A stretch of DNA of 64,000 bases from Synechococcus sp. MU1642 (GTDB lineage: Bacteria > Cyanobacteriota > Cyanobacteriia > PCC-6307 > Cyanobiaceae), in NCBI RefSeq assembly GCF_020514115.1, contig NZ_VTKZ01000007.1, forward strand, positions 1 through 64,000. Direction: 5' to 3'. Made by a program: the position numbers and the translations under genes. Under the pieces are notes generated by a model that did not search any database, was not told the origin of the DNA, and saw only the letters and a list, made by a program, of their open reading frames with translations. Position 1 is the first letter of the stretch. Every line of letters starts with the position of its first letter. Shown here piece after piece: positions 4,605 through 21,670 of this stretch.

Positions 4605-4644
4605 GTAGCAATTGCTACGAACGTTCACTTCGCTACACAGCGAA
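4605..4644 (+). promoter_or_regulatory. Palindrome and hairpin upstream of the DUF4278 gene
   Basis: A perfect 14-bp palindrome, GTAGCAATTGCTAC (4605-4618), follows an AT-rich stretch (TATATTTATTTT), and a TTCGCT/AGCGAA hairpin lies at 4629-4644. Both sit 55-95 bp upstream of the start codon at 4699, where an operator or a 5'-UTR element would be expected. Confidence 0.4.
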
Positions 4645-4698
4645 GCGCAGTTCGACTCAGGGCATGGAACGGGGCCTGAGCTTTCTACGAGGAACACC

Positions 4699-6001: not shown

Positions 6002-6427
6002 AAAGAGGAAGGCCGCCCTTCCCGGTGGAAAGACGGCCTAACTCGCTCGTTTGTGCATTGTTCAACCCATCACTTCAGCTAAGGAAAGAAAGGGTCGAAG
6101 CTTCTGGCTCGAGGCGCCCTGGGGCCATGGACTCGAGGTGTTGGGTCGTTTTCTCCGAGGGCACCTGAGACGGTGCAAGTGGAGCGTCGATTGGCGTGGC
6201 GGACCTTTGCGTGCCCACCAAAGGACCAACCCAGGTCATTTTTGAGACTGTTGGAGCAGGGGCCAGAAAGTCAGTTTGCTTCTTCGGTCTGCTGGGGTGG
6301 AGTGTCGTCCGTCATGGGCTCCTCCGATCTCGATGCCCATAGTTTTGTGCCTTGAGGGCACAAAGTCATCAGCATTAAGGCGCATTGCCTTGAGGGCCTA
6401 AACGATCGATTGTTGGGGTGGCGTGCC
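6002..6427 (-). ncRNA. ~425-bp structured repeat, copy 1 (putative ncRNA)
   Basis: This stretch is about 80-85% identical by eye to 17813-18240, in the same orientation, and holds no convincing gene. Several hairpins are kept between the copies. The arm pair CTCGAG/CTCGAG (around 6108 and 6132) becomes CTAGAG/CTCTAG in copy 2, a compensatory change. TTTGTGCC/GGCACAAA (6343-6364) and GCACC/GGTGC (6161-6176) are invariant stems with changed loops. On the minus strand the element ends in a 12-bp hairpin at about 6010-6037 followed by a pyrimidine-rich tract (TTCCTCTTT), resembling an intrinsic terminator. A minus-strand RNA of roughly 400 nt is the simplest reading. Confidence 0.55.
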
Positions 6428-7490: not shown

Positions 7491-7519
7491 GACGCCCCCT
7501 GATGGATTCGCACCACCGA
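7491..7519 (+). repeat. Left attachment-site copy: tRNA-Arg 3'-end remnant
   Basis: The first 20 bases (7491-7510) are identical to 21506-21525, and 27 of 29 match through 21534. The right copy is the 3' end and T-arm of the intact tRNA-Arg gene. Only the 3' part is present here, with no acceptor partner or anticodon arm, so this is not a functional tRNA. A direct repeat of a tRNA 3' end is the hallmark of site-specific integration by a tyrosine recombinase. Confidence 0.75.
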
Positions 7520-7861
7520 ACTGCTGCCGCTACTGCAATAGGTCAACCGTTCCAGATCAAAGGCAGTGACCAGGAAAGTTCCCTGAAGCTCTGGGGAAGT
7601 GCGCAGATTGGTGCGCCAGAGGAATCCAACCCCAAGCTCACGGCGTCACTGATTAAGCGTTAGCAGCAGATGCAGCAACAGCAGTAGTCAGCGAGCTTGA
7701 GGGAGCACCCACAAAAATGAGCTCACATCGACGAACACAACAATTTCAAAGAGCTCGCATTGAGAGATGTCTGAGTCTTAAAACAATGCATCGATGAATA
7801 CTTGAAAGATCCGAATAAAACCTTAAAAGAGGTTGTCTCGAGTTTTGGTCTCCTCAAGACG
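7520..7861. other. Interval with no recognised gene
   Basis: Inside the left island edge. Short frames exist but none has coding-like composition or recognisable motifs. Confidence 0.5.
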
Positions 7862-9882: not shown

Positions 9883-10463
9883 GGTTCAAGCTGCTTTTCG
9901 CTCCTAGCCCGGCGCAGGTTGACCAGGCGATTGATCAAGGGCTGACCGCCGGACATTTCCATTTCAACGAGAGCACCGGAGCGGGCGAGCAGCTCGAGCA
10001 GTTTTTCTCTCCTGGACGGCAGGTGATCGTGCTGGGAAAACACTGGTCGTCAGGCGGCCACTACTACTGGCCTGATAGCAGCGGCCCTGAGGCGTTGTCA
10101 GCTCCACCCAATTTCTGGTGGGACACCGTTCTTCAGCTGGCCATCGACAACCACCAAACGTCAGTTCCAAAGCACCGCACCGTGAGCACCGGGCGCAGTG
10201 ATTGGCATCGGCTCGACGATTGCCCGGTATGCCATCGCAATTCGAATGTCATCTGCGCGCTGCACCGCGACGGCAGAACTTTGCGCTGCTTTCACGGCCA
10301 AACATTCGCGCCGCCGCTGGAACTGAAAAAGGGTCAGCTCGCCCCCGGCACCCAGTGGGCTTTTTCAAAAACTCAGCAGGTGGATTTCGGGACCTTCTCG
10401 GTCTTCGCCCTGCACCAACCCAACAACCATCAACGACTCCGGGAGTGGCTGCGGAATGGCTGA
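9858..10463 (+). CDS. Phage/satellite-type primase fragment with zinc-binding motif
   Basis: 201 residues. The C-terminal half carries a primase-like zinc motif: 'DDCPVCHRNSNVICALHRDG' followed by 'TLRCFHGQTFAPP', i.e. CPVC plus a later C-x-H cluster. The upstream part ('SPGRQVIVLGKHWSSGG') is loosely like phage primase or primase-polymerase modules. No proper N-terminus is visible, and the first codons overlap a gene on the other strand, so it may be a 5'-truncated gene. It ends with ATGGCTGA, where the stop overlaps the start of the VirE-like gene, a typical coupled arrangement for primase/helicase pairs of mobile elements. Confidence 0.6.
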   Translation: MQRDTDLSRFKLLFAPSPAQVDQAIDQGLTAGHFHFNESTGAGEQLEQFFSPGRQVIVLGKHWSSGGHYYWPDSSGPEALSAPPNFWWDTVLQLAIDNHQTSVPKHRTVSTGRSDWHRLDDCPVCHRNSNVICALHRDGRTLRCFHGQTFAPPLELKKGQLAPGTQWAFSKTQQVDFGTFSVFALHQPNNHQRLREWLRNG

Positions 10464-12089
10464 ACAGATCGTCAAAGTCAGCCTGCTGCCTGAAGGCTGG
10501 AACACCTTTATCGACAGGGATGGCAAGGAACAGCGCATCAGGCTGGCGCTCGAGTTTGGGGACCTTTCGGTCCTGCTGAAGAAAGCCCTCAAAAAGCGAT
10601 GGCGCTTCAACCTGCTCACCAAAAAGATCGAGCTGGATGGTGTCGCCGTTCCGGTTGCCGAGATCGACCAGTTGTATGTCGCGCTCTCGGAGCGTGGATA
10701 CAAGATCGATCAGAGCAAGGCCAAGGCCGCTGCCAAAACAGCGGCCATGGCCAACGCGTTCCATCCAGTCACGGATTATCTGAACAAGGTGGCGAGCGAT
10801 GGCGGCATCGCAGCCGTCGACCTCAACAGCGTGGCCAGCACCTACTGGAACACCACCGACCCGCTGTACGACGCGATGGTGAAAGCCACGCTGATCGGCG
10901 CTGTCCGCCGCATCTTTGAACCGGGCTGCTCACGCCGCAACGTCCTGGTTTTCCAAGGCGGGCAGGACATTGGGAAGAGCCAGGGAATCATCGTTCTCGC
11001 CAGCCCTGCGTGGCACTCCGACACCCATCAGGAGAACCACAAGGACTTCCTGATGGCGATCCACGGTTGCTGGATTTTTGAACTCGCTGAACTCGACAGC
11101 ATCGTTTCCAAGAAGCAGGCCGGAACGCTCAAGAACGACATCTCCTCCCCGAAGGACTACATCCGCGTTCCGTACGGCAGCTCCCATGACTGGTTCGCTC
11201 GGCAGAGCGTCTTCATGGGCACAAGCAACCGCACTGATTTCCTGCGCGACGAAACGGGCTCATCTCGGTTCTGGGTGGTCCAGCTTCCGCACGATGCGGA
11301 CGCTGGGTTCGTCATTGATCTGAAAAGGCTCCTGAGGGATCGGGACGGAATTTGGAAGGCCGCCGTTGAGGCGTACCGGCGAGGCGAATCGGACAGGCTG
11401 ACCTTCGAGGAGCAGGCCGAATCCAACCGGCGCAATCTCAACTTCGAGGTGGATCACCCCTGGGAGGACACCACTGCTGAATGGTTGGAAAAGCTCCCGA
11501 CCCTTGGGAGCGCCCAGACCCTTTCACCAGCGAGGAGTGCTTCTACCTCTCCGGTTGCGCTGGCAATCCGATCGAATGGCGACACGCCCGAGCCGATGAC
11601 TTCTTCAAGCCGTTGGATCAAAAAGTCGCCGTCGAGGTGGGCAAGATCCTGCGCCGCCTGGGATACGAGAAGGACAACCATCAAAGCAGCAGCAAAAGCG
11701 GGAAGAAACGGCGGTGGCGACCCTCAGGTGCCTCACGTCGGCGCACCACACCTGAGGCGGGCCAAACCCCAGCAAGCGACAGCGATGCGGGCGAAGCGTC
11801 TCAGGTCTCAACTTCTTTTCATCAAAAAGATCTGAACCAAGGGGAGCCCGTGGCTGCCGCAGCAACTGTTGGGAAAACACCTGAGAGATCTGAGAGGCGC
11901 CGCCACCGCATCCCGCAGCTCGAGTTCCCCGATGCGCCGTTTTTCGGCCGACCGTCTCCCAATACAGGAGATGGTTTCGCCCCCACAAAGTCAGATCGCC
12001 AAAGAATTTCGCGGAGCAGCCGATCAGGCACATGCTCCAACCTGTACTCCAAACCCCCGAGACAGTGGCTGGCGCAGGCTGTGAACTGA
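10456..12089 (+). pseudogene. VirE-family P-loop helicase-like protein, frameshifted
   Basis: Residues about 165-174 form a Walker A motif (GGQDIGKS). These are followed by 'WIFELAELDSIVSKKQ', 'VFMGTSNRTDFLRDETGS' and 'RFWVV', the signature series of virulence-associated E (VirE) phage helicases. At about 11495-11502 (CTCCCGACCC) the frame is lost by one base. The family's C-terminal winged-helix region continues in another frame ('DPWERPDPFTSEECF', 'VAVEVGKILRRLGYEKDN') to the stop at 12089. In the unshifted frame translation would run on to 11835 with Arg/Ser-rich nonsense. The lesion is a one-base deletion, a sequencing error, or less likely programmed frameshifting. Confidence 0.75.
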
Positions 12090-12590: not shown

Positions 12591-12800
12591 GCTCATTTGA
12601 AACTGCTCTTGGCAACATCTAAAGCACGAACATCCGACCTACATTTCATACTTTGTTCGGAAGTTTCAGTCGCATGGGCCTTCCATCCAATGGTTTCTCC
12701 AATAACCATTGGGCGCTGAGTGTCAGCGTTACCATCCCGCGCCGACACAGCAAGCAACGGCCTGGCTCCTCTTATGAAGGGGAGGAGTCAGATCAGCGTT
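12591..12800 (+). repeat. Multi-hairpin island repeat, unit A
   Basis: Contains a GGAAG...CTTCC stem (12659-12684), the CCAATGG/CCATTGG hairpin (12687-12712), GCGCTGA (12713-12719), and a closing GGAGTCAG...TCAGCG arm (to 12798). An extra ~45-bp hairpin insert (GTGTC...GACAC) lies before GGCTCC; only unit F shares it. Confidence 0.8.
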
Positions 12801-12822
12801 TTCAGTTGCCGAAACCTTTCAG

Positions 12823-12998
12823 CGACTCATTTGGTCGCCGCTGTCGCCTCATTGGAACTGCACTGAACGCCTGGCAGAGGCGATCATTTCTTCGGAGGTT
12901 CCTTTGCTGGGCACTTCCACCCAATGGTTAGGCAATGCCATTGGGCGCTGGAGCGACCTGACTCCCTTTCTTTCCGGTCGGGGGGTCAGTTCAGCGTT
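12823..12998 (+). repeat. Multi-hairpin island repeat, unit B
   Basis: Clear example of the full module order. Stem 0 is TCGCCTC/GAGGCGA (12844-12850, 12877-12883), stem I is GGAGG/CTTCC, stem II is CCAATGG/CCATTGG (12921-12944), and stem III has inner arms CTGACTCC/GGGGTCAG with CGCTG/CAGCG outside. Ends in GCGTT at 12998. Confidence 0.85.
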
Positions 12999-13027
12999 AA
13001 AAAGCCTTCAAGACCGCCTTATCGCCT

Positions 13028-13221
13028 GTGTCGACTCCTAAAGAACTCCAACGCGTGAGCTTCTGAACTACACGAAAGCCAACGGAGATGAGCTGGTTGG
13101 GCTCGCCGTAGAACTAGCTGAAGACCCCAGTGGAGGCGTTCAAGTAAGAGTGCTTATGGATTCAAATGTCGTTAGCGGGGTAACAGTGGTCCCCCTGCAA
13201 CAAGGCGGCTGCTGCGACTAA
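13028..13221 (+). pseudogene. Frame-broken small protein with Cys-Cys tail
   Basis: A first short frame starts with GTG at 13028 (VSTPKELQRV) and stops at 13066. An overlapping frame continues with 'ELLNYTKANGDELVGLAVEL' and ends 'QQGGCCD' at TAA 13219-13221. Joined by one base change they would form a ~63-residue protein. The layout (helical acidic leader, Gly-rich C-terminal core with cysteines) is vaguely like RiPP precursors of the Nif11/nitrile-hydratase-leader type, but no maturation enzyme is nearby. Low-confidence interpretation; the stop abuts the metallothionein stop. Confidence 0.35.
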
Positions 13222-13380
13222 TCAGCAGCAACCACAACTAGAGCAACATTGCTCATCACCGGCATGACCATCAGCACATGGCTGAGAGCAGTAAATCTTG
13301 CCTTCTTTCTCGATGGCTTTTTCCGGATTAACGCTGCAGCCACAGGGTTCACATGCGCATGGGTGGTTGGTGGTTTGCAT
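13222..13380 (-). CDS. smtA: Metallothionein, SmtA-like
   Basis: A 52-residue Cys-rich protein with 11 cysteines: 'CACEPCGC' near the N-terminus, 'KIYCSQPCADGHAG' in the middle and 'QCCSSCGCC' at the end. The CACEPCxC and YYCSxxCADGH-type motifs are those of cyanobacterial metallothioneins (SmtA/BmtA), which bind zinc and cadmium in a Zn4 cluster through Cys and two His; the His in CADGH is present. It acts in the cytosol in metal storage and detoxification. No SmtB-type repressor gene is visible next to it. It sits in the island with remnants of metal and metalloid efflux genes. Confidence 0.88.
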   Translation of the reverse strand: MQTTNHPCACEPCGCSVNPEKAIEKEGKIYCSQPCADGHAGDEQCCSSCGCC

Positions 13381-13495
13381 GGCGTTGACAAAGTATTCCC
13401 ACCTTTATAGATCAAAAATCAATCGACGCATCCCTCAAACATATTCATAGTATCGTATTTCTTCAATCAAGGAAGAGCCAAAGTATTCAGATAGT

Positions 13496-13822
13496 TCATA
13501 TCTCTACGCCGTCATCACGATGCTCAAAGTCTACCCAATGAATACAATCAACAGGGCAGGTATCAATCGCCTCCTGGATTCGATCTATTGAATCGCCATC
13601 TTGTCGCACAGCACGGCAGCGACCTGTTTCTGGGACCATAACAAAAGTATTAGACGCCACATGTGCACAGTAACGACAACCAATGCAATCAGACTCGTCA
13701 ACCCAAACTGCTTTTTCACGCAATGCTCCGCCCAAAGATGGCTCTAGCCCAGTGCGAAGACCACTGCAATTACCTGATTTAGGCGAGAAAGCTGCCCCAA
13801 CTGATTTTTCCGAAATGTACAT
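13496..13822 (-). CDS. [4Fe-4S] ferredoxin
   Basis: A 108-residue protein with one cluster-binding set: 'CIGCRYCAHVASNTF' supplies CxxCxxC and 'CPVDCIHW' supplies the distal Cys-Pro. This layout is that of the cyanobacterial/plant bacterial-type ferredoxins, sometimes fused to J-domains in plants. The N-terminal ~40 residues are an extension. Start chosen at ATG 13822 (MYISEKSVG); ATG 13840 would add six residues. It begins 8-26 bp after the CpcL-type linker gene on the same strand, so the two form an operon. It is probably a soluble electron carrier acting near the membrane complex organised by the linker (inference). Confidence 0.85.
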   Translation of the reverse strand: MYISEKSVGAAFSPKSGNCSGLRTGLEPSLGGALREKAVWVDESDCIGCRYCAHVASNTFVMVPETGRCRAVRQDGDSIDRIQEAIDTCPVDCIHWVDFEHRDDGVEI

Positions 13823-13848
13823 AATTCTGGTTTGACACAATCTCTAGC

Positions 13849-14595
13849 TCAAATCGTGAACATCTGGCGGAAGACTAAAAGAATCAAGGAAACACTTCCA
13901 ATGCCTAAAACAAACAAGAAAACAAACCAGAGTTTAAAAAGACGACCCTCAGGCTTTTCATAAATCAGACGGGATACCGTCATTGGCCGACTGATTTTAT
14001 TGAGGGCATCTACAGAGATCATTAATCCGTCACGAATCAGTCGATCACGCCAACTTTCTCCATAGCGAGGAAGTCGCTGGTAGATAGGCATCTCTCCTTG
14101 AGAGCGTCCTGGCAAAATACGATTTACTTGATCGGGGATTCCATCAATTCCAAATCTCTCAAAATACTCAGGAGATTCCAAGATGTCATCAACAAAAGCT
14201 GCAAATCCCTGTTCGGCAATAACAATGGACCAAGATTTTACTTCATCTAGTCCGTAAACAGGACGACCAAGGACACGGCCTATGACCTGCTCAACTACTC
14301 GATCGTTCCCATTGCATTCGACGTAGCCCCTATAAAAACGATCCGAAAGTAGAAGTCCTCTTATAAAATCTCTTACGGTGATAGAACCTGACCTAAGCTG
14401 TGATTCTAAAAATCGATCACGATCACATCTCATTGCATGAAAATATATCTGCCGATAACACCTTTCAATTATTTCTGACGACAAATCAGGTGCTCGATCC
14501 AAACAGGGTTGACGAGAAGCTGATATTGAGTCAACTCGAGAGTTTTGACTTGATGGCTTGAATGGCAAGCGAGCCCTGGCAGAAAGGGAGGCCAA
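13849..14595 (-). CDS. cpcL: Phycobilisome linker with C-terminal membrane anchor (CpcL/CpcG2-like)
   Basis: 248 residues. The first ~170 form a phycobilisome linker (Pfam00427-type) domain: 'CYRQIYFHAMRCDRD', 'ESQLRSGSITVRDFIRGL', 'RFYRGYVECNGNDRVVEQVIGRVLGRP' in pieces. A basic stretch is followed by a strongly hydrophobic C-terminal helix, 'LWFVFLFVLGIGSVSLILLV', ending at MFTI. CpcG-type rod-core linkers lack this helix, whereas CpcL-type linkers use it to anchor rod-only phycobilisomes to the thylakoid near photosystem I. Start at 14595 (MASLSARARL). The downstream ferredoxin gene is in the same operon. The membrane anchor is seen directly; PSI association is inferred from the family. 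Confidence 0.85.
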   Translation of the reverse strand: MASLSARARLPFKPSSQNSRVDSISASRQPCLDRAPDLSSEIIERCYRQIYFHAMRCDRDRFLESQLRSGSITVRDFIRGLLLSDRFYRGYVECNGNDRVVEQVIGRVLGRPVYGLDEVKSWSIVIAEQGFAAFVDDILESPEYFERFGIDGIPDQVNRILPGRSQGEMPIYQRLPRYGESWRDRLIRDGLMISVDALNKISRPMTVSRLIYEKPEGRLFKLWFVFLFVLGIGSVSLILLVFRQMFTI

Positions 14596-14800
14596 TTAAT
14601 CTGAAGTGATATTGCATTATTAAAGACATTAAAAAATTACTGGCAAAAACAATGAATACCTCTATCGAAGATAATCAAGACACCCCGCGATTGCAAAAGG
14701 CATATTATAAAGACCATTTGATACCACATTAGGTAGTTTTTAAACGTCCAATGTGGCAACGCTCTTTAATGATGGTTTTGATCATCACGGCAAATTGGCT

Positions 14801-15160
14801 ATGGCGTTGAGCGAATTTGAAATTGTGATAGGTGGGCTTACTTCAATTCCAGTTGTGGGTGGACTAATCTTTCTTGGATATAAGTCTTTAGGCGAAAGTT
14901 CTTTAGATACAAGCAAACTTAAACCCAAAAAAAAGACAGCAGTCGCAAAGGGAACACCCACACCTGACAAGAAAGACCCTGGAGCAAAAAGCCAAAAGAT
15001 AGAGAAAAATATTAATACGACTAGCACTAACAAAGAAGAAGCTTCTGCGGGAGAACAGCCAAAGCCAGCTAAGGAGAAAACTTCAATATCAAGCAAAAAT
15101 CAGCCTGAAGACAAATCAAAAGTGATGCCACCAAATCAAACAACCAAACTGGAAAAGTAG
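14801..15160 (+). CDS. Membrane-anchored Lys-rich hypothetical protein
   Basis: 119 residues from ATG 14801 (MALSEFEIVIGG). One transmembrane helix at residues ~5-28 ('GGLTSIPVVGGLIFLGYKSL') precedes a long, charged, low-complexity tail rich in Lys, Pro, Ser and Thr ('KLKPKKKTAVAKGTPTPDKK'). The tail is probably disordered and cytoplasmic. A GTG at 14753 could extend it by 16 residues. The gene is divergent from cpcL. Codon use is AT-rich like the rest of the island. No family recognised. Confidence 0.6.
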   Translation: MALSEFEIVIGGLTSIPVVGGLIFLGYKSLGESSLDTSKLKPKKKTAVAKGTPTPDKKDPGAKSQKIEKNINTTSTNKEEASAGEQPKPAKEKTSISSKNQPEDKSKVMPPNQTTKLEK

Positions 15161-15426
15161 GAGATATCAATAAAGCCAAGCAGGAAAACATGTAGATAAT
15201 ATGTCTGATCAAGCCAAGCCTTCTCTGCTTAATATGAGTAGCGATTCAGGCTGCCAGTAGAAGCATAAAATATACGATCTGCATGTAACAAGATAAGCAT
15301 TCAGTCTCCATTATTACTACCCAATGAGATCGATATTCACCTTGTAAAAGCAGCATCGAGGACATGAATTGCTATCAAATTATTTCATGAGGAAGCCGGA
15401 GCCAACGAAGATATGATTTTATACTA

Positions 15427-15795
15427 ATGGACATTCTCAATGTTCTTGTTGGCGTTACCGCGATCTTCTGGATTGCCGCTGGAATCAAAACACATAGCGA
15501 TTGGATTCAATCGATCTTTGTCAATGAGAGCAAAAAAATCCGGCAACAAATAGAAATAATTAGTGAGTTTGGCTACGGAGCACTCAACACACGCAACACA
15601 CTTGAGGTCAAGAAAGGACTGGTCTTTGCCTATTGGGACAAGCCCCTTGGAAAACAAAAAAACGAGGGGACTCCTGAACAAATGCAAAGTCCACTCATTT
15701 TTCAGCTGGTATCACTAAACCTTATTGCTTGCACATCAATTGCATTATTAATAGTTCTGGGCAGAGGTCTTTTCTCAATACTAGGTCTGATTTAA
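15427..15795 (+). CDS. Hypothetical two-helix membrane protein, 122 aa
   Basis: Begins MDILNVLVGVTAIFWIAAG, a hydrophobic helix, and ends with a second one ('VSLNLIACTSIALLIVLG'). The central ~60 residues are charged and amphipathic ('NESKKIRQQIEIISEFGYG'), presumably a soluble loop. Start ATG at 15427 lies in AT-rich sequence. No domain recognised. The 265 bp upstream (15161-15426) shows no gene. Confidence 0.6.
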   Translation: MDILNVLVGVTAIFWIAAGIKTHSDWIQSIFVNESKKIRQQIEIISEFGYGALNTRNTLEVKKGLVFAYWDKPLGKQKNEGTPEQMQSPLIFQLVSLNLIACTSIALLIVLGRGLFSILGLI

Positions 15796-15925
15796 ACGCA
15801 CCTAAACTTTAACTGAAGTCTTAGACCTACTAATAGTTCTAACGCTCGATGACCACAGGTCAAAGCGAATAATGATGTCTCACTTTGTCTAGGGCATAGT
15901 ACCAAACATTCCACAACATATCTGG

Positions 15926-16095
15926 CGTGCATTTGGATGAAGCTATTACCTCATCTGTACTGCACTTAACTCATGGCTAGTGAGACAATTTTTTTGGAAG
16001 TTCTATTACAGCACTTTCATCCAATGGAGTGATGACCATTGGGCGCTGTTCAGGGACTAACTCCTCTTCTGAACGGGGGGAGTCAGTTAAGCGTT
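15926..16095 (+). repeat. Multi-hairpin island repeat, unit C
   Basis: Stem II is CCAATGG/CCATTGG (16021-16042) with loop AGTGATGA, identical to units E and G. Stem III arms are CTAACTCC/GGAGTCAG with a weaker outer pair (GCGCT/AAGCG). Ends with GCGTT at 16095. Confidence 0.75.
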
Positions 16096-16307
16096 ACTGG
16101 CGCCTGAACATCGAAAAGTGATATTTCCCTGTGCGATCTGCTCGTGCGGTGTTCATCATGTAGTCCAAGCCAGATCCTGATCCATGGTTCCTTTAGTGCG
16201 GCCAATCGCTGGCCTAGTACTGGTGTTATTTCACATCATCTACGGGACTAATCCTCAGAGCTAAAGCAAAGATACGCATTAATAGGCATATTTAACAAAA
16301 TTCATAA

Positions 16308-16481
16308 GACTCATTTGATAATTACCTCTACATCATCGGATTAGTACTCAACTACAGCAGAGGTAATGATGTTTATGGAAGTTCTTCCGTTAGGGCTTTC
16401 CATCCAATGGCCTATCCACAGTCATTGGGGCGCTGGAGAGTAACTGGCTTCTCTTCTTCAGTGGTAAGCCAGTTCAGCGTT
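16308..16481 (+). repeat. Multi-hairpin island repeat, unit D
   Basis: The most informative copy. Stem 0 is ATTACCTCT/AGAGGTAAT (16321-16329, 16359-16367), where unit B has TCGCCTC/GAGGCGA. Stem III is CTGGCTT/AAGCCAG (16444-16472), where other units have CTGACTCC/GGAGTCAG. Both arms changed together. Confidence 0.85.
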
Positions 16482-16519
16482 GTCTGATTATTGACTCCAC
16501 CACATCGAAACATAGGCAA

Positions 16520-16686
16520 CGATCATTTAGCTACTGCCATTGCCTCATCACGACGTAACAGCATCCATCCACAAAGCCATGCTTGTTGCGGAGCCTCGGA
16601 ACCTCCCTCCAATGGAGTGATGACCATTGGGCGCTGATAACACCACTGGCTCCCTCTTTGACGATGCAGGGAGTCAGATCAGCGTT
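16520..16686 (+). repeat. Multi-hairpin island repeat, unit E
   Basis: Stem I GGAG/CTCC (16590-16606), stem II CCAATGG/CCATTGG (16609-16630), stem III CTGGCTCC/GGAGTCAG with a G-T pair. The 3' half (16609-16686) is nearly identical to unit G. Confidence 0.8.
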
Positions 16687-16771
16687 ATTTGACTGCTGAT
16701 GTGATGAGCCTAAAGACACCTAGTCATCCTTCTTTTGCAAAGAGTATTTTGTCTACAAAACCCAAGAGGTT

Positions 16772-17014
16772 ATGAAGCGTTCATTGAAGATTATATTTAT
16801 TTTCTCTCTCTACACACTTATGTGTAGCGGAGTTCTTACTATAGCCATTCGCGAGTCCACAAGACAGCCAATTGGCCTATTAGTGGTAAGCATGGCATTG
16901 ACCCCAGCCTTTGTTGCTGTTTTTGGCGGCTTACCTGTTAATTTTTTAGAGGAAAAATTTAAAATGAAGCTTGATAATAATTCAACTGGTAATGAGGGAG
17001 CCAAAAGAAGCTGA
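16772..17014 (+). CDS. Hypothetical two-helix membrane protein, 80 aa
   Basis: MKRSLKIIFIFSLYTLM begins an N-terminal helix; a second helix ('IGLLVVSMALTPAFVAVFGG') follows after a short loop. The tail is charged (KFKMKLDNN...). Composition is AT-rich like other island genes. It is convergent with flavodoxin, 38 bp away. No family recognised. Confidence 0.6.
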   Translation: MKRSLKIIFIFSLYTLMCSGVLTIAIRESTRQPIGLLVVSMALTPAFVAVFGGLPVNFLEEKFKMKLDNNSTGNEGAKRS

Positions 17015-17052
17015 CTAAGCTTCATGATAGCGTATATTGCACTCACAGTCTT

Positions 17053-17568
17053 TTATATAATCGCCTCCTGCATAATTAGCCTGGACCAAGACTGAAGTCG
17101 CTCATCGGTTTTTTCGGATTCATTATCTTCATCTAATGGGAGGCCGCAGAACATGCCGTCAACAACGCTTTTGGAATCATCAAAGATATATTGCTCAACT
17201 GATACATGGCCGATCATCCGACCTCCTGCAGATTCGAATAATCTATAAAGCTCTTCCATTGCATCACAAAAATACTTGCCGAAGGCCGCAGAATCACCTA
17301 AACCTACAATCGCAATAGGCTTACCTTTTAGGGATAAATGAGGAATATGATCAATATGCTCGTCCCATGTTGTACCTGATCTCTTGGTTTCAGAACCCGT
17401 ATTCCACGTTGGAGTACAACAAATGAGTGCCTCAGACTCTTCCAGCTCTTTTATAAAATCTATTCTATCAAGGTCTTTTAATTCCGATCCAGGCAATAGC
17501 ACTTTCAGCCTTTCCGCGATGTCTTCTGTATGACCAGTTGCAGACGCATAAACAATGGTAAAGCGCAT
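17053..17568 (-). CDS. isiB: Flavodoxin (long-chain)
   Basis: 171 residues with the FMN phosphate-binding loop 'YASATGHTEDIAERL' near the N-terminus, the flavin-flanking 'TPTWNTGSETKRSG' near residue 57 and 'GLGDSAAFGKYFCDAM' near residue 95. The end 'LPLDEDNESEKTDERLQSW' is typical of long-chain flavodoxins of about 170 residues. Flavodoxin replaces ferredoxin as electron acceptor of photosystem I and donor to FNR when iron is scarce. Start chosen at 17568 (MRFTIVYAS); 17589 would add seven residues not seen in the family. Located in the island together with a ferredoxin and a CpcL-type linker. Confidence 0.88.
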   Translation of the reverse strand: MRFTIVYASATGHTEDIAERLKVLLPGSELKDLDRIDFIKELEESEALICCTPTWNTGSETKRSGTTWDEHIDHIPHLSLKGKPIAIVGLGDSAAFGKYFCDAMEELYRLFESAGGRMIGHVSVEQYIFDDSKSVVDGMFCGLPLDEDNESEKTDERLQSWSRLIMQEAII

Positions 17569-17812
17569 AGAACTAAGGCACCCAGTCAATAGTAAATATC
17601 AGCTTTATGCCCCTTAATCTTATTTGACATATCGAAGTCACGCAAAGCACCTATACGACTTATTTTTGCTTCTAAGGCACACAGCTTCCACCAATGATTA
17701 GGAAAATTTGCCAGATACTTGATCAATAGGATCCGGGCTTTCAACCTACTTAACTAAATAAATTATAGCCAAACTCTTCACTGAAAAAGTAATATTGAAC
17801 GATTTTGCGTTG

Positions 17813-18240
17813 CAAAGAGGAGGCCGCCCCTCCCAGGTGGAAGAGACGGCCTAGCTCGCTCGCTTGTGCATGGTTCAACCCATCACTTCTGAAGAAAGAA
17901 AGGGTCGAAGCTTCTGGCTAGAGGCGCCCTGGGGCCATTTGCTCTAGAGAATGGGTCGTTTTCTCCTAGGGCACCTGCGACGGTGCAAGCGGAGCGTCGA
18001 ATGGCGTGACGTATCTGATGTGTACCTAACCAAACGACCAACCCAGGTCATTCATGAGACTGTTGGAGCAGGGGCCAGAAAGTCAGTCTGCTTCTGAAGT
18101 CTGCTCGGTTGGACCGTCGTCTCGCATGGACGCCTCCGATCTCGATGACCATATTTTTGTGCCTTGAAGGCACAAAGTCATCGGCATTAAGGCGCATTGC
18201 CCCTTTGATGGCATCTACGCGAATGTTGGGATGGCTTGCC
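17813..18240 (-). ncRNA. ~425-bp structured repeat, copy 2 (putative ncRNA)
   Basis: Second copy of the element at 6002-6427. Compensatory changes relative to copy 1 are visible. The stem at about 17918-17946 reads CTAGAG/CTCTAG instead of CTCGAG/CTCGAG. The terminal hairpin (about 17822-17852) has C-G where copy 1 has T-A. TTTGTGCC/GGCACAAA and GCACC/GGTGC stems are retained. The minus-strand 3' end again has a GC-rich hairpin followed by CCTCCTCTTT. No coding frame is shared along the full length. Confidence 0.55.
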
Positions 18241-18276
18241 ACAACAGGTTGATGCAAGCTTTGGGCACTGACGAGA

Positions 18277-18318
18277 AGCACAGGCTCCTGTGTTTCAGAG
18301 GAGGAGTCGGTTCAGAGT
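18277..18318 (+). repeat. Truncated 3' end of an island repeat unit
   Basis: GGCTCCTG...AGGAGTC followed by GGTTCAGAGT resembles only stem III and the GCGTT end of the repeat, in degraded form. It is wedged between the 425-bp element and unit F. Confidence 0.5.
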
Positions 18319-18342
18319 CTTCGCTTGCCACAACATTGGTGT

Positions 18343-18557
18343 GCCTCATTTAGTTACTGCCACTGCCTCATCTGAACTGCACTGAACCCCCAGCAGGAGC
18401 GATGGTGTCTACGGAAGTTCAGTCGCATGGATCTTCCATCCAATGGAGGGGCAATTTCCATTGGACGCTGTGTGTGTCTACGCTTATCCAGTCCGGCGTT
18501 GACATAGCAAGTGACGGCCTGACTCCTCTCCTCAACCAGAAGAGTCAGTTCAGCGTT
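18343..18557 (+). repeat. Multi-hairpin island repeat, unit F
   Basis: First unit of a four-unit tandem array. Stem I GGAAG/CTTCC (18413-18437), stem II CCAATGG/CCATTGG (18440-18464), stem III CTGACTC/GAGTCAG. Carries the same ~45-bp insert as unit A (GTGTC...GACAT). Confidence 0.8.
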
Positions 18558-18579
18558 TTCAGTCGTCGAAACATTTCAG

Positions 18580-18748
18580 CGAATCATTTGGACGCCGCTT
18601 TAGCCCCATTGGGACGGCACACGATGCCTGCCGAGGCGATAGTTTGACTGGAGCGCAGCACAGCCTCCATCCAATGGAGTGATGACCATTGGGCGCTGAT
18701 AACACCACTGACTCCCTCTCTGACGATGCGGGGAGTCAGATCAGCGTT
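18580..18748 (+). repeat. Multi-hairpin island repeat, unit G
   Basis: Stem I GGAG/CTCC (18650-18668), stem II CCAATGG/CCATTGG (18671-18692), stem III CTGACTCC/GGAGTCAG (18708-18739), end GCGTT at 18748. Confidence 0.85.
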
Positions 18749-18762
18749 TTGACTGGTTTCGA

Positions 18763-18943
18763 CGACTCATTTGGTTGCCGCTGTCGCCTCATCTGAAAGA
18801 ACGCAGCCCACAACAGGGGCGATTGTTTCTTCGGAAGCTTCAGTCGGATGAGCCTTCCATCCAATGGTTTTTTTGTTTTAACCATTGGGCGCTGATCAGA
18901 AGCTGACTCCTTCATTCGCAACCGGGGGAGTCAGTTCAGCGTT
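18763..18943 (+). repeat. Multi-hairpin island repeat, unit H
   Basis: Stem 0 TCGCC/GGCGA, stem I GGAAG/CTTCC (18833-18858), stem II CCAATGG/CCATTGG (18861-18888) with a T-rich loop, stem III CTGACTCC/GGAGTCAG (18903-18934). Confidence 0.85.
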
Positions 18944-18956
18944 TTGACTTTCTTCG

Positions 18957-19131
18957 ACGACTTATTTGGCCACTGCCACTGACTCATCTGTATCGGACTG
19001 AACCTTGGCAGGGGCGATTATGTGTACGGACGTCCACTTGTATGGACATCCATCCAATGGTTTGCACTTAGCCATTGGGCGCTGGAGCGACCTGGCTCCC
19101 TCTCTGGCGAGCGGGGAGTCAGATCAGCGTT
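18957..19131 (+). repeat. Multi-hairpin island repeat, unit I
   Basis: Stem I has changed on both sides to GGACGTCCA/TGGACATCC (19028-19051). Stem II CCAATGG/CCATTGG (19054-19078), stem III CTGGCTCC/GGAGTCAG. Followed directly by the DUF3104 gene. Confidence 0.85.
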
Positions 19132-19195
19132 ATTTCATAGGCAGCTGCAACTCGTCTAACTGCCAGAAGCAGTAGAGATCTACTTGAAAAGGTGT

Positions 19196-19444
19196 ATGTC
19201 AATTGATCATGCAAGTGGCGCCTCAACGCCCAAACCAGATCCGGTCTTTCTCCATGTCAAAGCGGGAATGGCAGTGATAATCCGGAACACTGACAAGACC
19301 TGGCGCATGGCTGACGTCATTAACGTTATTGGCAGCGCCAAAAATCCAAAGGTTCCAAAGTTTTTCCAGGTGACATATGTGGATAATCACGTCACCAACT
19401 GGGTCAATGCTGACCTCGTGACTCACATCGTCCCAAGGGTCTGA
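19196..19444 (+). CDS. DUF3104 family protein
   Basis: 82 residues. 'LHVKAGMAVIIRNTDKTWRM' and 'ADVINVIGSAKNPKVPKFFQV' followed by 'NWVNADLVTHIVPRV' match the DUF3104 pattern seen in marine Synechococcus and Prochlorococcus. The fold looks like a small beta barrel. ATG at 19196 is preferred (MSIDHASGAS); a TTG at 19184 would add four residues. Its flanks are repeat unit I (65 bp upstream) and unit J (55 bp downstream), so the gene sits like a cassette between two repeats. Function unknown. Confidence 0.7.
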   Translation: MSIDHASGASTPKPDPVFLHVKAGMAVIIRNTDKTWRMADVINVIGSAKNPKVPKFFQVTYVDNHVTNWVNADLVTHIVPRV

Positions 19445-19498
19445 AGTGCCGGCATACACAGCGTATGAGCAACCTCCTGCACCTCGAAACATTTCAGC

Positions 19499-19664
19499 GA
19501 ATCATTTGGACTCCGGCATTGCCTCATCTGAAGAGAGATCACTCAACGAAAAAGTGATTATGTCTTCGGAGTCCCCAAGCCTCCATCCAATGGCGAGCCG
19601 TGGTCATTGGGCGCTGACAAGAAAGCTGGCTTCTCTTCTGACCGGGAGAAGTCAGTTCAGCGTT
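19499..19664 (+). repeat. Multi-hairpin island repeat, unit J
   Basis: Stem I GGAG/CTCC (19568-19584), stem II CCAATGG/TCATTGG, stem III CTGGCTTCTC/GAGAAGTCAG (19626-19655), with both arms different from most units. Last recognised copy. Confidence 0.8.
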
Positions 19665-21505: not shown

Positions 21506-21534
21506 GACGCCCCCTGATGGATTCGAACCATCGA
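21506..21534 (+). repeat. Right attachment-site copy within tRNA-Arg
   Basis: Matches 7491-7519 at 27 of 29 positions, the first 20 exactly. It covers the acceptor 3' strand and T-arm of the tRNA gene. Confidence 0.75.
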
Positions 21535-21581
21535 CCGACTGCTTAGAAGGCAGTTGCTCTATCCAGCTGAGCTAAGGGAGC
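21508..21581 (-). tRNA. trnR: tRNA-Arg (anticodon TCT)
   Basis: On the minus strand the 74-nt sequence folds as a cloverleaf: acceptor arms GCTCCCT/AGGGGGC, a D-arm with AGCTCAGCTGGATAGAGC, an anticodon stem ACTGC/GCAGT with loop CTTCTAA (anticodon TCT), and a T-arm with GGTTCGAATCC. No encoded CCA. It is the integration target of the island and remains intact. Confidence 0.95.
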
Positions 21582-21670
21582 AAGCGACCACATTTTGGCA
21601 GGCTGCTTTAGGGCAGGCTGGATATGGAAGCCTTGTGCCGCCTAAGGTGATGGGCTATTGATCGGCATCC

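Follow-up and report, generated by a model that had tools for sequence, protein, structure and literature searches.

The closest described likeness to the repeat treated here is the attC site, the cassette repeat of chromosomal integrons and of clusters of attC sites lacking integron integrases (CALINs), which stands in same-orientation arrays between small accessory genes. An attC site is a hairpin with outer and inner paired boxes and a sharp GTT 3' end, in which the R'' box (RYYYAAC) pairs with the R' box (GTTRRRY). In integrons the bottom strand is the one used, as described in a study that also covers CALINs (PMC8618304). The subject of this report is a family of multi-hairpin repeats, here called units, in a 64,000-nucleotide stretch of Synechococcus sp. 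MU1642 (contig NZ_VTKZ01000007.1, positions 1 to 64,000, forward strand); this whole stretch is referred to as the window. The units are tentatively read as cassette-boundary sites; the system they belong to would be integron-like, specific to the genus, and would shuffle genes in the accessory islands of marine Synechococcus. We place the likelihood of this proposal somewhat short of even.

The unit shares with attC the array of one orientation, the hairpin with outer and inner paired boxes, and the sharp GTT 3' end, at which exchange would take place. It differs in its 5' foot, GCGCTG, which carries no AAC box, and in the lack of a strict GTTRRRY; it is also longer, with extra hairpins, and its own genome has no integron integrase. 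Membership in the canonical integrons was rejected on box sequence, strand and integrase. The single orientation that is used to recognize integron arrays is found in 19 of 19 multi-unit clusters (among the 107 best hits described below, several clusters being orthologous).

Two further groups invite comparison. Tycheposons, the tRNA-integrated satellite islands of picocyanobacteria (PMC10872708), resemble the element that carries the array in their repeat of a tRNA 3' end, a VapE gene and accessory cargo, and the related element of another genome (G030) also holds a recombinase relative. The hairpin units are the new part, and most of the other unit loci have no tRNA within the retrieved flanks. 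REP/BIME and PATE-type palindromic repeats are likewise dispersed intergenic hairpins; the unit differs from them in being longer, multi-hairpin and of one orientation per cluster, and in having no Y1 transposase in its own genome. An IS200/IS605 parent was rejected on the same absence.

A preliminary description of the array, made from its sequence, knew of no described family with this layout. Rfam gives no match above the gathering threshold in the array, with one sub-threshold microRNA hit at E <= 1, and a known RNA family was rejected on this ground; no published description of such a repeat was found among titles and the opening lines of abstracts, a search outside which most subscription papers lay. 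In the partly available text of PMC2441476, on marine Synechococcus islands, the words "repeat," "integron," "cassette" and "hairpin" do not occur.

Units in the Window and Across Genomes

Ten units lie on the plus strand between positions 12593 and 19664, placed between the cargo genes of an accessory island, with some open reading frames (ORFs) running through them (Table 1). They have in common stem I, stem II and a terminal hairpin in which stem III stands between the feet GCGCTG and CAGCGTT. The order is TCATTTGG, stem I (GGAnG/nnTCC), stem II (CCAATGG/CCATTGG) and the terminal hairpin, which reads GCGCTG-spacer-CTGACTCC-loop-GGAGTCAG-nT-CAGCGTT. A unit is ~170–190 bp long and ends sharply at CAGCGTT, after which comes varied sequence or the next unit. 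GTT closes 87 of 107 units, and the base that follows is A or G in 73 of the 107.

The pattern CCAATGG-N3..20-CATTGGGCGCTG occurs eight times in the window, with 0.00 expected from 100 shuffles, and a covariance model of the unit core (R1, built from 13 copies) detects only these ten units there at E <= 0.01. The ten same-strand units with stems I–III of the preliminary description are confirmed. Its statement that none lies elsewhere in the window also holds, with a decayed eleventh unit now added below the threshold; outside the window the same genome has six more, for 16 strong copies in the model search. That the units might be fragments of one decayed protein gene was considered and rejected: length modulo 3 (0/1/2) is 15/23/5 for P2 and 11/16/16 for P3 across 43 units, and no frame is kept.

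The covariance-model search of relatives that had been proposed was carried out: of the 34 genus genomes, 16 have units, MU1642 included, with 1 to 24 copies per unit-carrying genome at E <= 0.01. No unit was found in the rest of the family, sampled at 366 genomes out of a larger group, or, in an earlier model search, in 25 genomes of other genera; both large searches were run with stricter filters. The short pattern, scanned over a wider contig collection, picked out 41 stretches, and all seven titled Synechococcus match the model. Three non-Synechococcus stretches were tested with the model; two gave nothing, and a Hyphomonadaceae stretch (L013) gave E 0.016, which is taken as chance. Viral carriage was also considered and rejected, five viral contigs in the pattern scan having no model match at E <= 0.1. 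So far, the family is known only from one genus of marine Synechococcus.

The comparisons below draw on 140 model hits in the retrieved loci, the best-scoring 107 of which were analysed further; one of the 33 weaker hits dropped is an opposite-strand hit overlapping a unit. Removal of near-duplicates and of units over 215 bases left 57 non-redundant units, and 13 of these, four scoring above 80 bits, were taken out by hand to give alignment A6 (44 full units). The units are mosaics, and any single tree for them is only an approximation.

Gene Content Switches at the End of the Unit

Comparison between strains places changes in gene content most often at the 3' end of the terminal hairpin. Unit A is 95–98% identical per segment up to the GTT in the window and in either of two other loci (L133 or L125), and unit F is 95–97% identical up to the same point in the window and L133; in both, the next 40 bases drop to background, where background is the 46–66% identity that unrelated units average by segment. 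MU1642 (L012) and G030 (L133) have in common, at different loci, a ~375 bp block that consists of a small membrane-protein gene together with its unit. From GTT to GTT it is 72–100% identical per 40 bases, and at least 93% over the first 160 bases. Identity is 47–85% in the preceding unit, 93–100% right after the GTT of that unit, and 51% past the block's own GTT. This is the one gene-plus-unit block in which identity steps at a GTT on either side, at two loci.

The GCGCTG foot is a second, rarer switch point. Hairpin III goes with the downstream sequence in three comparisons (unit I of the window with L125, L012 with L128, and L130 with L136), and in L120 compared with unit F of the window it has been exchanged away from the upstream part. 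Parsing succeeded for 63 of the 107 units, and the joints were tallied over these, in pairs that overlap and are not independent events. Of the pairs sharing only downstream sequence, 27 switch at the 3' end, 5 at the GCGCTG foot and 2 at the stem I/II border, and 4 show other patterns. Where only upstream sequence is shared, no segment of the unit matches in 12 pairs, the unit is retained entire in 3 (a switch at its 3' end), hairpin III is missing in 2 (a switch at the foot), and 3 pairs behave otherwise. In at least 4 of those 12, the shared "upstream" sequence is itself the preceding unit, so the break falls at that unit's 3' end.

The stretch 12800–13200 of the window, which holds unit B and the relic of a gene for a 66-aa protein, is 21–42% diverged from three syntenic islands, and the adjoining 100-base bins are mostly 1–14% diverged; it reads as a replaced module. 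For two singleton units, a search for the empty site returned changed flanks and no clean insertion. By eye, sequence is conserved over ~13 and 20 nt at the two exchange points, and blocks of this size are short for ordinary homologous recombination. Most exchange between strains appears to take place at the 3' GTT end, followed by the GCGCTG foot, a distribution that favours a recombination site. The preliminary description had left the choice among a structured RNA, a recombination site and a mobile element; the strain comparison shifts the balance toward the second, and the other two keep lower probabilities.

Evidence for a Fold on the Plus Strand

The preliminary description argued from paired changes in the stem arms that selection acts on a fold. 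Pairing itself is well supported: in the 44 full units, 88.6% of cells in the drawn structure are paired, compared with 33–51% when partners are slid, and three of five pairing measures exceed all 500 shuffles. The claim that the arms change together is supported to that extent, but not by the remaining two measures, since pairs with two-sided changes (11) and pair types (43) show no excess, with 77 and 282 of the 500 shuffles as high, respectively. Outside stem 0, the first stem of the preliminary description, two-sided changes are found in 6 of 28 pairs. In the alignment of all 57 units compensatory pairs do occur, one in stem II (AU in 50, GC in 5) and two in stem I (GC 31/AU 15 and GC 51/AU 3).

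Significant covariation had been named as the check on this fold, and the outcome comes close to going against it. With our own R-scape-like null, a tree-based shuffle used as a substitute for R-scape, a stem I pair ranks first of 18,145 column pairs in the 44 units, yet reaches only E about 0.65; with 57 units it drops to E about 11, and no stem pair is significant. The sole significant pair on 57 units (E 0.008) falls within the loop region of stem III and is not part of the drawn structure. Stem III hardly varies, which leaves little power to detect covariation.

An unselected double-stranded inverted repeat is expected to change to G.U and to A.C about equally. In stems II and III, the inferred changes are 29 to G.U and 2 to A.C with 44 units, and 41 and 5 with 57 units; changes to nonpairs number 17 and 24. 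Stem I has 7 and 4 with 44 units and 10 and 4 with 57. The 44-unit counts omit an invariant G-T pair and the eighth pair of stem II. Because G.U so far exceeds A.C in stems II and III, the plus strand would be the one that folds, as RNA or as single-stranded DNA. Judged from the sequences, this strand asymmetry is better evidence for a fold than covariation, and it supports selection on a plus-strand fold in stems II and III; the earlier case for selection survives in this form, its covariation argument being weaker than stated. Stem 0, which had been listed as a shared feature, was rejected as one: 65% of its cells are paired in the 44 units, RNAalifold does not predict it, and its changes (29 to A.C, 14 to G.U) show no plus-strand wobble preference.

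Candidate Enzymes

One recombinase stands next to a unit in MU1642. Contig C22 carries an intact tyrosine recombinase of 428 aa whose gene stops immediately ahead of a unit (PHROG integrase, E 1.8e-15; Pfam below the cut-off), and in G014 an 86%-identical relative is placed in the same way. Four further relatives (L165, L166, L170 and L178) have non-unit sequence immediately following their stop codons. Solved structures, searched by sequence with the C22 protein as query, gave no match. A role as the specific partner of the units is unsupported by its distribution across genomes, and the C22 recombinase is put forward as a candidate enzyme only.

The lone integron integrase among the 34 genus genomes, which is full-length, lies at L252 (G029 contig C36) in a metagenome-derived Synechococcus assembly, possibly on a foreign contig. 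No hairpin unit was found in the L252 DNA examined around it. Y1 transposases, the only transposase family searched genome-wide, are absent from MU1642 and present in 4 of the 34 genus genomes. The preliminary description had also named a known insertion sequence as a possible source of the units, and for the Y1 family this absence speaks against it.

Carrier Element, Cargo and Neighbouring Genes

The array looks like the cargo of a ~14 kb tRNA-integrated element beside tRNA-Arg. An att-like repeat lies 14 kb from the tRNA gene, with the VapE gene in between (Table 1). No tyrosine recombinase was found among those of the window ORFs that were scanned with Pfam. In addition to the genes listed, the cargo holds a short chlorophyll-binding-like protein below the Pfam cut-off.

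Islands of G020, G030 and G014 are ~90% identical to the window over much of the array, and in G020 and G030 the related island is beside tRNA-Val. The G030 element holds a relative of the C22 recombinase with one in-frame stop. G003, whose flanks are 96% identical to those of G030, has the sequences from either side of the G030 element joined to each other; they overlap by 74 bp, which extend into tRNA-Val. An empty site is found likewise in G001, G033, G010 and G029, with overlaps of 47–50 bp. These five empty sites belong to the G030 element at tRNA-Val, not to the window's own element.

Table 1 Features of the unit array, its carrier element and cargo (window positions unless a contig is given)
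Feature	Position	Strand	Remark
Att-like direct repeat of tRNA-Arg 3' end	7491..7527		86% identity across 37 nt; presumed left end of carrier
VapE-domain primase/helicase of carrier	10456..11835	+	
Unit A	12593..12800	+	Spans TCATTTG to CAGCGTT; additional hairpin after GCGCTG and before stem III
Unit B	12827..12998	+	Stem 0 present
Cargo: relic of 66-aa small protein gene	13054..13218	+	Window copy looks frameshifted
Cargo: prokaryotic metallothionein	13222..13380	-	
Cargo: ferredoxin-like protein	13496..13840	-	
Cargo: phycobilisome linker domain protein	13849..14595	-	
Unit C	15929..16095	+	
Unit D	16311..16481	+	Stem 0 present
Unit E	16523..16686	+	Final 85 bases 95% identical to those of G
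Cargo: flavodoxin	17053..17589	-	
Decayed eleventh unit	18213..18319	+	Model E 0.07
Unit F	18346..18557	+	Extra hairpin like unit A
Unit G	18584..18748	+	
Unit H	18767..18943	+	
Unit I	18962..19131	+	
Cargo: DUF3104 protein	19184..19444	+	Between units I and J
Unit J	19502..19664	+	
tRNA-Arg(tct)	21506..21582	-	Other att-like repeat copy = 21506-21542
Own-genome units outside the window	C15 276.2-277.3 kb (four); C15:304734 (one); C22:128198 (one)		

The gene for the 66-aa protein recurs beside units across the genus. It lies just 3' of a unit in 13 of its 19 copies (12 by model hits, one by a decayed unit seen by eye), and for two of the remaining six the upstream sequence was viewed. The protein ends in CC[D/E] (for example, L117 7975-8175) and has no Pfam or PHROG match; several copies have a convergent metallothionein-like gene. 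Counts of neighbour-gene orientation (upstream 15 same and 16 opposite, downstream 20 and 14) show no apparent bias and were discarded, as the codon-usage gene calling behind them missed obvious island genes.

Other dispersed sequences were seen in and around these islands. Positions 6031-6389 and 17844-18201 of the window form a ~360 bp pair, 86–93% identical and 11.8 kb apart, with no Rfam match; the island copy directly precedes the decayed unit. The counterpart of this segment at L133 12984-13411 has at least a partial match in all ten genomes searched, more than once in several. The 3' ends of DUF1651 genes make up a dispersed island family that is found beside units and after recombinase stop codons (L119 8927-9199, and many loci). 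A stretch of ~97 bp at L012 3525-3622 has one to several copies, 71–90% identical, in each relative searched. The window also holds a glutamine-II riboswitch on the plus strand at 4619-4680.

A Tentative Mechanism and Competing Explanations

In a shuffling system of the kind proposed, the terminal hairpin (GCGCTG...CAGCGTT) would serve as the recombination site. Its plus strand would fold when single-stranded, during replication or transfer, and the GTT foot would be where a recombinase exchanges strands, with the mirror-image GCGCTG foot used on occasion. Gene modules would in this way be inserted, lost or replaced between units. Folding in vivo, the action of an enzyme and the direction of each event are all putative here. 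We consider it unlikely that the system arose apart from integrons, as a cassette-shuffling system with a genus-specific top-strand hairpin site, a non-IntI recombinase, and small genes with light, iron and metal functions arrayed in tRNA-integrated elements and other islands.

A number of observations weigh against cassette-boundary sites. No recombinase is tied to the units: the integron integrase (TIGR02249) is absent from MU1642 and found in 1 of 34 genus genomes, and relatives of the C22 recombinase are present in 10 of the 16 unit-carrying genomes and in 7 of the 18 that lack units. The favoured fold, with G.U on the plus strand, is on the opposite strand from that of attC. The 66-aa gene mostly has its unit on the 5' side, unlike an integron cassette, in which the site lies 3' of the gene, and in the 12 copies with a model-detected unit no further unit was detected within 500 nt after the gene. 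BLAST spans the L012/L133 block plus the preceding units at 83%, and because the alignment continues through it, the left edge of this block is an identity step, not an end. Positions 17600-17800 of the window contain no unit and are also strongly diverged (up to 34%). Some joints lie inside units, at hairpin feet or the stem I/II border; a ~617 bp tandem duplication at L130 is joined inside a unit, as from unequal crossing-over; and the break between L136 7738 and L150 8106 has no intact unit at the joint. A simple one-cassette insertion with a clean empty site was not found.

A competing explanation takes the units as passive dispersed repeats, made into breakpoints by homologous recombination, gene conversion or replication template switching between short identical blocks, with no dedicated enzyme. 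The two commonest switch points do coincide with long conserved blocks of the unit, a point that also counts against a dedicated site, and the chimeric units, the duplication joined inside a unit, the 95% identical 85-nt 3' parts of E and G, and the failure to find a specific recombinase all fit. Unrelated units, however, average the low identities by segment given above, sequence switches most often right at the terminus of the repeat, and neither the wobble bias nor the uniform orientation follows from passive repeats alone. On balance we regard this explanation as somewhat unlikely. The wobble bias in stems II and III, together with some compensatory changes in stems I–III, is what would be expected of a structured RNA family, a plus-strand transcript acting as a 3' untranslated region, leader or tandem small RNA and spread by islands together with host genes. 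The position of some units agrees with this, as those at L117, L119, L151 and L137 begin within a few nucleotides of the stop codon of a co-directional gene, and in most copies of the 66-aa gene the unit ends a few tens of nucleotides before it. The same bias is expected from single-stranded DNA, though, and the R-scape-like test and Rfam lend no support to an RNA. Promoter-like sites in the region number 6, against 10.5 in shuffles, and terminator-like sites 10, against 6.2. An RNA also leaves the switch in gene content at the 3' end unexplained; such a family is unlikely, though, like recombination through repeats, still a serious competitor.

A nonautonomous mobile element, either similar to miniature inverted-repeat transposable elements or IS200/IS605-like and inserting near gene ends, would account for dispersed copies, for singletons as well as arrays in one genus only, and for the extra hairpins in A and F. 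Several points tell against it: by inspection, the ends (TCATTTGG and CAGCGTT) form no inverted repeat and no target duplication is seen, Y1 transposases are as scarce as described above, and neither of the two singletons tested gave a clean empty/filled pair. This origin is very improbable. The cassette-boundary reading is preferred, at the tentative strength given at the outset, for what it makes of the switch at the 3' GTT end.

Implications

These repeats bear on the open question of how abundant, small-genome ocean phototrophs assemble and reshuffle their accessory genes. Tycheposon-like elements account for the movement of whole islands, not for the combination of genes inside them. Sites that mark the seams between modules would provide a known motif for junction sequencing, with which reshuffling would become measurable in cultures and metagenomes. 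Even if no enzyme acts on the units, the repeat would still be a clean recombination marker in these islands.

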